Shown: piece by piece, positions 18,527 through 27,865 of the stretch | Position numbering within the stretch: the first letter of the stretch is position 1 | Layout of the letters: each line of letters begins with the position of its first letter | From: Pelosinus sp. UFO1 | Lineage (GTDB): Bacteria; Bacillota; Negativicutes; DSM-13327 | Assembly: GCF_000725345.1 (NCBI RefSeq) | Contig: NZ_CP008852.1 | Location: 4,580,001-4,644,000, forward strand | Direction: 5' to 3' | DNA length: 64,000 bases | Position numbers and translations under genes: made by a program | Notes under the pieces: model-generated | Seen by the model: only the letters and a program-made list of their open reading frames with translations | Database searches by the model: none | What the model was told of the DNA's origin: nothing

Positions 18527-19795
18527 CTATTTAATTACATCAACGCCCATATAAGAACGCAGTACTTCAGGTACAATAACAGAGCCATCAGGTTGTTGGT
18601 TGTTTTCCAAAATAGCGGCTACAGTGCGGCCAATCGCTAGGCCTGAGCCATTTAACGTATGTACAAATTCTGGTTTTCCTTTAGCCTCACGGCGGAATTT
18701 TATATCAGCGCGACGGCCTTGGAAATCCTCAAAATTCGAACAGGATGAAATTTCTCGGTAGGTATTAAAACTAGGCAACCATACTTCAATATCGTAGGTT
18801 TTCGCAGAAGAGAAACCCATATCACCACTACATAAGGCGACTGTACGATAAGGCAATCCTAGCAATTCCAAGATACGTTCTGCATTACGAGTCAACTTTT
18901 CTAGCTCATCATAAGAGTTCTCCGGTAAAGTCAACTTCACCATCTCTACTTTATTAAACTGATGCTGACGAATTAAACCACGAGTATCCCGGCCAGCAGC
19001 TCCTGCTTCGGCACGGAAACAGGCACTATAAGCCGTATAATATAAAGGTAAATCTTTGACATCTAAGATTTCTCCTCGATGATAATTAGTGATTGGTACT
19101 TCTGCAGTAGGAATCAAATAATAATCGAGTCCCTCCAACTTAAACATATCTTCACTAAACTTAGGCAATTGCCCGGTTCCTGTCATACTCTCTTTATTTG
19201 CAATAAATGGAGGGAAAAATTCCGTATAGCCGTGCTCACCAGTGTGAATATCAAGCATAAAATTAATCAGAGAACGTTCTAACCGAGCTCCTAGTCCCCG
19301 ATAAAAAGTGAATCGTGTTCCAGTGACTTTGCCACCCCGTTCAAAATCAAGAATATTGAGTTTCTCGCCAATTTCCCAGTGAGCCAGTGGCGGTTTTTCA
19401 AACGTAGTAGGAGTTCCCCAATTACGCACCTCGATATTGTCCTGCTCATCCTTTCCAATAGGTACTGAATGATGAGGTATATTAGGGATGTTCATAATAA
19501 TAGCTTGCAGTTTTCCCTCTACTTCCTTAACCTTACCATCGAATTCACCGATCTGATCGCCGACTAAACGCATTTGGGATACTAAACTTTCCGCATCTTC
19601 CTTGGCCTTTTTAAGACGACTAATTTCAAGAGATACAGTGTTTCGTTTATTTTTAAGTGCCTCTACCTGACCTAACAATTCACGACGCTCTTTTTCCAAA
19701 ACTAAGAACTCATCTAAACTGAGATTCATGCCGCGCTTTACTAAGGCTTGTTGTACTTCTTCTGTATTGTCCCTGACAAATTTAATATCAAGCAT
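18527..19795 (-). CDS. serS: Seryl-tRNA synthetase
   Basis: 422 residues, the normal length. The N-terminal coiled-coil arm (about 30-105) binds the long variable arm of tRNA-Ser. Class II motifs follow: motif 2 [21 protein letters not shown] and motif 3 [22 protein letters not shown], with [13 protein letters not shown] between. It charges tRNA-Ser with serine. AGGAGGG precedes ATG 19795. It has its own promoter and a structured leader with a terminator (19895-20038), so it is probably controlled by attenuation. Confidence 0.96.
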
Positions 19796-19894: not shown

Positions 19895-19996
19895 ACAAAA
19901 AACTCCCGCCTGCTATTCAGGAACGAGAGTATCTTTCCCGCATAAGCGCTGTTATACGGTACATAACGGCATAAATCTGCTCTTATACATAAATAG
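19895..19996 (-). promoter_or_regulatory. Structured serS leader with attenuator-like terminator
   Basis: From the promoter at about 20012 a leader of roughly 110 bases runs to a terminator hairpin (ACTCTCG..CCTG / CAGG CGGGAGT, 19930-19902) with a T run, about 100 bases before serS. Within it, GTTAT / ATAAC sits inside ATAAGAGC / GCGCTTAT, and that 3' arm can alternatively pair with an upstream GTATAAGC. The conserved T-box GGTGG core is absent and the leader is too short for T-box stem I. The terminator part (GCGGGAAAGATACTCTCGTTCCTG) resembles the serA T-box terminator, so a shrunken T-box derivative is possible. Confidence 0.55.
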
Positions 19997-20009
19997 CTTA
20001 TACCATTAT

Positions 20010-20038
20010 ATTCTACAATATTCACCATTTATTGTAAA
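20010..20038 (-). promoter_or_regulatory. Promoter of serS
   Basis: On minus: TTTACA (20038-20033), a 17-base spacer, TAGAAT (20015-20010). Confidence 0.7.
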
Positions 20039-27642: not shown

Positions 27643-27865
27643 TAAAAAAATCCCTCATCCCATAACAGGGACGAGAGATATTCCCGCGTTGCCACCCAAA
27701 TTGCCATAACAGCCAACTCTAATCGCTATATCGGGCGACACCCGTCACAATTCATCATTAGCCACTCCAGGGCGGAACCATTTGCCAAAATGACCGACTT
27801 CCACCACCCGTCGGTTCTCTGTACATTCTGCACACTTAGCTTCCCTTTCATCATGTTCAACTATC
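27643..27865 (-). promoter_or_regulatory. T-box leader of the serA-DUF1015-serC operon
   Basis: On minus, the T-box core TTTGGGTGGCAACGCGGG (27700-27683) is followed by a terminator (CTCTCGTCCC / GGGATGAGGG plus seven T, 27679-27643). Stem I features lie upstream: AGAGA, then CCGAC-GGGTGGTGGAA-GTCGG. A candidate specifier codon TCC (27776-27774, followed by G) would read serine. Uncharged tRNA-Ser would bind and prevent termination. The serine assignment rests on the specifier guess plus the operon content. Confidence 0.88.

Follow-up and report, generated by a model that had tools for sequence, protein, structure and literature searches.

What kind of leader controls serS in Pelosinus sp. 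UFO1, and is it a T-box, what is left of one, or something else? The regulated gene lies at 18527–19795 on the minus strand of the window (the whole stretch of 64,000 nucleotides analysed here) and encodes a protein of 422 amino acids, named by homology as seryl-tRNA synthetase. A preliminary description had placed a promoter, a structured leader and a terminator ahead of serS, and this arrangement was borne out. The promoter (20010–20038, minus strand) consists of the −35 element TTTACA (20038–20033), a 17-nt spacer and the −10 element TAGAAT (20015–20010), and carries 10 of the 12 consensus bases. The consensus promoter scan as a whole did no better than chance, with 17 sites where 14.3 were expected; support for this promoter comes from its conservation in the genus, where it is 91–100% identical to those of seven other genomes. 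An inverted repeat, TTTACAAT-N11-ATTGTA, spans the promoter (20014–20038, minus strand) and is kept in the genus. Similar repeats are present in other families. Considered as a marker of a regulon, the palindrome had three exact sites in the genome versus one for a reversed-pattern control.

Transcription is predicted to start near 20003, and the leader runs for about 108 nt on the minus strand, from just after the promoter to ACUCUCGUUCCUGAAUAGCAGGCGGGAGUUUUUU (19930–19897). Its 5' domain (19960–20003, minus strand) is constrained in sequence and has neither a stem I match nor a specifier. In the terminator, ACUCUCG (19930–19924) pairs with CGGGAGU (19908–19902), with an inner CCUG/CAGG, and UUUUUU (19902–19897) follows. 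A simple terminator scan did not list this element, which is probably explained by its UU bulge; in the partition function of the full-length fold its probability is 0.99. The fold of the 119-nt stretch, at −30.6 kcal/mol, is somewhat more stable than that of shuffled sequences (z −2.10), 8 of 200 of which were as good. The RNAalifold centroid of the genus leaders left the 5' domain unpaired and recovered only the terminator.

The preliminary description had also stated that the GGTGG core and a long stem I are absent, and both reading and Rfam agree. No Rfam T-box match to the serS leader was obtained at the gathering score (93 bits) or at E ≤ 5 over 16 kb, and a search of 191 nt around the leader against 4227 families at E ≤ 10 returned chance matches only (the best at 14.6 bits, for a gathering score of 50), so that the leader is assigned to no known class. 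By reading, the 108-nt leader contains no stem I and no specifier codon, nor GGTGG or the T-box core AGGGUGGNACCGCG with its UGGN bulge; a core of the form G[GA]GUGG or AGGUGG is found in all 21 T-boxes of this 5.1-Mb genome. What the leader does share with RF00230 is the antiterminator helix A2, with GCGGGA/UCUCGU pairs that the intrinsic terminator overlaps, while the A1 helix is not retained. The likeness of its terminator part to the serA T-box, pointed out in the same description, holds as well: the canonical serA element (27664–27860, minus strand; RF00230, 79 bits) ends in GCGGGAAUAUCUCUCGUCCCUG, which resembles GCGGGAAAGAUACUCUCGUUCCUG of the serS leader. The specifier of the serA T-box was read by eye as UCC, and a tRNA-Ser(GGA) is encoded in the genome.

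Two models were used to compare the leader with T-boxes in both directions. R1 is a covariance model built from 13 leaders, from which the window leader, its near-identical relative and L041 are excluded. It scores the window leader at 57 bits, as the sole match in the 5.1-Mb genome at E ≤ 1. Over 380 genomes of the class, R1 gave a match at E ≤ 0.01 in 93, and 17 serS leaders score at least 41.7 bits and share the 3' module; 13 of these are the training set, and those of G000, G008, G001 and G348 lie outside it. The 30 loci returned are these 17 serS leaders and 13 others, of which 12 are Rfam T-boxes and one, L204, sits inside a gene. Eight weaker matches fetched from selected families comprise six T-boxes, a plain terminator (L215) and a site before a transporter gene (L221). 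R1 also matched all four T-box-led serS leaders supplied and, of 10 serS loci with another type of leader region, none. In the other direction, R2, a model of the antiterminators/discriminators of this genome's 21 T-boxes, found its best match in the 191-nt stretch at GCGGGAAAGAUACUCUCGU (19923–19941), a weak one of 6.9 bits (E 0.041 for 191 nt), which it aligned to the A2 helix at model positions 13–30 only (GCGGGA..UCUCGU). Applied to 11 loci with reduced or possibly reduced leaders, R2 gave 22.2 bits for G348 and a weak 10.4 bits for L047, and no match at E ≤ 1 for the remaining nine.

The regions upstream of serS were read in loci from a 160-genome sample of the class and in fetched stretches. 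According to Rfam, a full T-box precedes serS in 5 of 20 stretches (L151, L152, L157, L159 and L165) and at L051; at L057–L061, L066 and L067, GGGUGGCAACGCGGG was recognised ahead of serS by eye only. Among named loci scanned from other bacteria, 5 of 11 have a T-box-led serS (L070, L106, L127, L144 and L145). Short leaders of the form CGGGA..CUCUCGU..GGCGGGAG, or close to it, occur in the window's family f1, in f7 (three genomes), f12 (three) and f26 (one). Alignments A1 and A2 do not include L048, whose terminator differs; A2 and R1 were made without L033 and L034, which had a one-base misalignment, and without L041. An intermediate form is present in G348 (L197), a single draft assembly (88% complete, 240 contigs), where AGGGUGGCAGAAGCGGGAAGGCACUCUCGUCCCU and a terminator stand 100 nt before the serS ORF. 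This locus keeps the discriminator parts AGGGUGGCAGAAGCGGGA..UCUCGUCCCU ahead of serS without a recognisable stem I, Rfam reported no T-box in the leader, and visual inspection showed a promoter-like sequence several tens of bases ahead of the matched module; the leader looks like a discriminator without stem I.

Further leaders were noted in the same material. Other short terminator-like leaders stand ahead of serS at L064, L068, L149 and L155 (f8), L153, L062 and L161; R1, given L064, L153, L062 and L161, matched none of them. The T-box at serS may thus have been lost more than once. L161/L172 (G022), considered as a reduced leader for its CGGGA..CUCUCG, was dropped, with no R1 match at E ≤ 0.1. 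In family f3, the T-box-like leaders L201, L202, L205 and L210 are strong R1 matches of about 35–41 bits, and several f3 genomes have their R1 match about 3.5 kb ahead of serS, which suggests an operon that contains serS. The near-identical relative has a second SerS, 38% identical, with a canonical T-box of 115.8 bits (L043, G008:C2:86319-87563). L001 (G000:C1:1770939-1771145, minus strand) is a T-box ahead of a solute-symporter-like gene; about 38 nt downstream of it, without an intervening stem I, come a second discriminator, UUUGGGUGGUACCACGG..AUCGUCCCU, and its terminator, and close discriminator pairs were found by R2 in G044, G096, G040 and G348 as well. In the sister genus, the leader of a transporter gene (L221, G002:C221:2833-2883) reads GGGAAAGUACUCUCGUCCC..terminator, has no T-box match and is possibly another reduced leader.

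The promoter and the gene order bear on the same question. When the promoter spacer of the genus was compared with 182 distinct promoter-like spacers from the fetched loci, the nearest were mostly those of serS promoters, T-box-led ones included (L224/L051, L066, L061, L060, L151 and L057); equally near, at 10–11 of 17, are spacers not shown as serS promoters (L168, L157, L059 and L136). The HD-GYP gene upstream of serS in the window is also upstream in four of the seven T-box-led loci with 1500-nt flanks (L059, L060, L061 and L066) and is not upstream in the others (L051, L057 and L067); no match to it was found in T-box-led L058 or in the shorter-flank T-box stretches L152, L157, L159, L165 and L169. 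Taken together, the cross-matching models, the promoter and the synteny argue that the serS leader is of common descent with T-boxes. The change presumably went from T-box to reduced leader, T-box first and reduction later being the simplest order. The SerS tree is poorly resolved at depth, with four to five label changes for the reduced type, and one as well as several reductions fit it. A single origin of the reduced leaders, as in a quick tree where a single clade held 16 of the 17 reduced rows, received no support from a careful tree that included G348 and was dropped. That the leader is instead an ordinary intrinsic terminator, like a T-box by chance as a 3' end or as part of an unrelated leader, is scarcely credible: R1 does match the plain terminator L215 and the in-gene site L204/L222, at 28 and 40 bits, yet the module is placed specifically ahead of serS in 17 genomes, its promoter and synteny are common to T-box-led serS, and 12 of the 13 next-best loci are T-boxes.

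Is the reduced leader still in use? All seven other genomes of the genus that were examined have it; a 161-nt query that includes the promoter gave 88–99% identity in the part that matched. Of the two genomes from the sister genus of the family, G001 gave a match split in two and G002 a single one, at the promoter only, and no terminator was seen by eye at the G002 serS locus (L042). Relative to the window, the leader is 81–88% identical in six congeners and 100% in the near-identical seventh, and its 5' half (alignment columns 35–95) is 80–87% and 100% identical, respectively. In the same six congeners, identity is 39–44% at the four-fold sites of serS and 24–35% in the spacer behind the terminator. 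The values for the leader and its 5' half, set against those for the four-fold sites, therefore place the whole leader, beyond the terminator, under strong constraint, and a leader conserved in this manner is no dead relic.

Four segments of the minus strand can be distinguished within it, and three segments appear to compete. Segment 1 (CCGUAU, 19954–19959) pairs with AUGCGG (19943–19938) in a proposed anti-antiterminator hairpin based on the fold of L033; segment 2 (CGGGAA, 19935–19940) is the 5' strand of the antiterminator; segment 3 (CUCUCGUUCCUG, 19918–19929) is a shared strand that pairs with segment 2 as antiterminator or with segment 4 as terminator; and segment 4 (CAGGCGGGAGU, 19897–19912), with the U run, is the 3' arm of the terminator. 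In segment 2, C, G, G and A are invariant in 13 leaders from four families (those used for the model), and in segment 3, CUCUCGU is invariant in an alignment of 16 leaders. The terminator partner of CUCUCGU varies between GCGGGAG, GCGGGGG, GCGAGAG and ACGGGGG with every pair kept. All 80 pair cells of the terminator are standard in 10 distinct leaders, and the changes are one-sided only, as expected if the 5' arm has two partners. The antiterminator has one two-sided change in the genus, from CGGGAA/UUCCUG to CGGAAA/UUUCUG on one supported branch, and that of L041 has a G.U. The covariation of hairpins, a check set by the preliminary description, is thus present in part: two-sided once in the antiterminator, one-sided in the terminator, and unconvincing in the 5' half, where the variable columns of the genus gave 19 compatible column pairs, none of them in a convincing helix. 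Tests against shuffles in single leaders were not significant for the antiterminator duplex (p 0.05–0.72 in 12 leaders), and for the segment 1:2 hairpin gave p 0.02–0.61 in 15 leaders, one of them below 0.05 (window leader p = 0.42). Two families have CCCG as segment 1 and the genus has CCGUAU or UCGCAU, so that segment 1 is not one homologous element; in f7 and f12, CCCGUU..CGGG is able to form a hairpin that captures the antiterminator strand.

The partition function follows these pairings as the window leader grows. Segment 2 is paired upstream with a probability of 0.73 before segment 3 is made; with segment 3 present, it pairs upstream at 0.26 and with segment 3 at 0.71; once segment 4 is made, the terminator dominates (0.99). 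In full-length folds the terminator is dominant and the antiterminator nearly absent, with the exceptions of L044 and, partly, G348 and L049. We favour the reading, with a probability of roughly 0.68, that the serS leader derives from a Ser T-box, was reduced in place and still works as a transcription attenuator. A Ser T-box would have lost stem I, stem II/III and the bulge that binds the tRNA 3' end, and would have retained its promoter together with an A2-type antiterminator helix and the intrinsic terminator that overlaps this helix. According to the switch logic that conservation suggests, segment 2 would, until segment 3 has been transcribed, tend to pair upstream, either with segment 1 or with the 5' domain. 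If held captive, it would leave segment 3 to pair with segment 4, and transcription would stop; if released, it would pair with segment 3, and serS would be transcribed. The lineage, the loss of the tRNA-reading parts, the mutual exclusivity of the pairings and the constraint are demonstrated at the level of sequence. We infer that the release of segment 2 is conditional, and that the signal would come from the conserved 5' domain of about 60 nt, or from a factor bound there, by a route other than T-box-style tRNA reading.

The preliminary description had proposed a reduced or new amino-acid sensing leader. "Reduced" stands, with a 3' half that matches T-boxes both ways and a promoter like that of T-box-led serS; "amino-acid sensing" found no support in a leader with no specifier, UGGN bulge, stem I, conserved Ser-codon peptide or tRNA-Ser complementarity beyond shuffles. 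Four tRNA-Ser (the anticodons in the genome are GGA, TGA, CGA and GCT) and four control tRNAs were paired with six leaders, and no tRNA-Ser went beyond shuffles; duplex p values below 0.05 arose only with tRNA-Thr (0.01 for the window leader, 0.03 for L036), which we take as chance in 48 tests. It is improbable that the leader is a minimal T-box without stem I that reads tRNA-Ser by contacts yet undescribed. Such an element would share the descent from a Ser T-box, and the UGGC bulge still in G348 matches the GCCA 3' end of tRNA-Ser, yet UGGN is missing from the window leader and the genus, the Ser codon AGC of the window's 5' domain is AAC in congeners, and the four tRNA-Ser duplex energies are no better than shuffles for the window leader (p 0.28–0.84), a result that does not by itself exclude binding.

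Ribosome-mediated attenuation, in which a leader peptide with Ser codons took the place of the T-box, is more doubtful still. Short ORFs do overlap segments 1–2, such as MYRIAVLMRKNTLVSG in L037 and MYRITALMRERYSRS in the window, yet the ORFs listed in 15 leaders gave no conserved frame with Ser codons. Indels between congeners break the frames, no ORF of the five genus leaders tested or of L041 has a Shine-Dalgarno-like site, L036 has no Ser codon, and an ATG ORF is lacking altogether in L044 and G348.

Since neither a ligand site nor a peptide nor a contact with tRNA was found in the leader, one may ask whether a sensor is needed. A fixed partial terminator, in which the sensor was lost and the remainder sets a constant read-through into serS, would suit the probability of 0.99 in the full fold and the several related serS genes that have other short leaders or none. 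Such a terminator would need no segment 2, yet four of its positions are invariant across four families, and it would need no 5' half conserved at 80–87% where synonymous sites stand at 39–44%; we regard it as unlikely. A more specific form of the in-place reduction is that the platform was kept and the sensor changed: once stem I and the discriminator bulge were lost, the conserved 5' domain, about 60 nt long and new (in other families a CCCG hairpin), would have taken control of the old antiterminator, in response to a signal that is not T-box-style, e.g., the SerRS protein or a metabolite. This is a tentative possibility.

Compared with the class I transcriptional Ser T-box (RF00230; serS and serA leaders), the serS leader has the same gene, a similar promoter, the A2 helix (GCGGGA/UCUCGU) with the overlapping intrinsic terminator, and cross-matches by R1 and R2. 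In contrast, it lacks stems I, II and III, the specifier, the UGGN bulge and the A1 helix, measures about 108 nt against about 200 nt for a full T-box in the Rfam matches, and has, further upstream, a hairpin that can sequester the strand used by the antiterminator. The ileS T-boxes of Actinobacteria, with an ultrashort stem I, still have specifier and discriminator and regulate translation, whereas the serS leader has neither and its platform is a transcription terminator. These class II, translational elements show that much of stem I can be lost (PMC7583486). Transcriptional T-boxes generally require a long stem I, according to the same review (PMC7583486). Partially tandem T-boxes, also described there, have a second discriminator without its own stem I and an action that is unknown (PMC7583486). 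They resemble the serS leader as a T-box expression platform without a stem I of its own, but are preceded by a full T-box and have UGGN, whereas the serS leader stands alone and lacks it. In bacilli, T-boxes of hisS are reported to have been replaced by leader peptides (PMC2965389). Those attenuators are like the serS leader in their evolutionary setting and in the 1:2, 2:3, 3:4 hairpin logic, while the serS leader has no conserved translated ORF. In the openly licensed literature, with subscription work mostly outside this scope, no description came to light of a T-box that had shrunk to an attenuator without stem I, and priority is not established.

The gene serS is commonly within the Ser T-box regulon (PMC8002221). 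The usual picture of T-boxes is a modular one in which stem I reads the tRNA and is coupled to switching by the discriminator and terminator. At serS, an orthologous series presents a full T-box, a discriminator without recognisable stem I (G348) and a conserved attenuator without either. Leaders of this type are missed by searches for whole T-boxes. The series lets one ask whether a riboswitch platform outlives its sensor and gains another.
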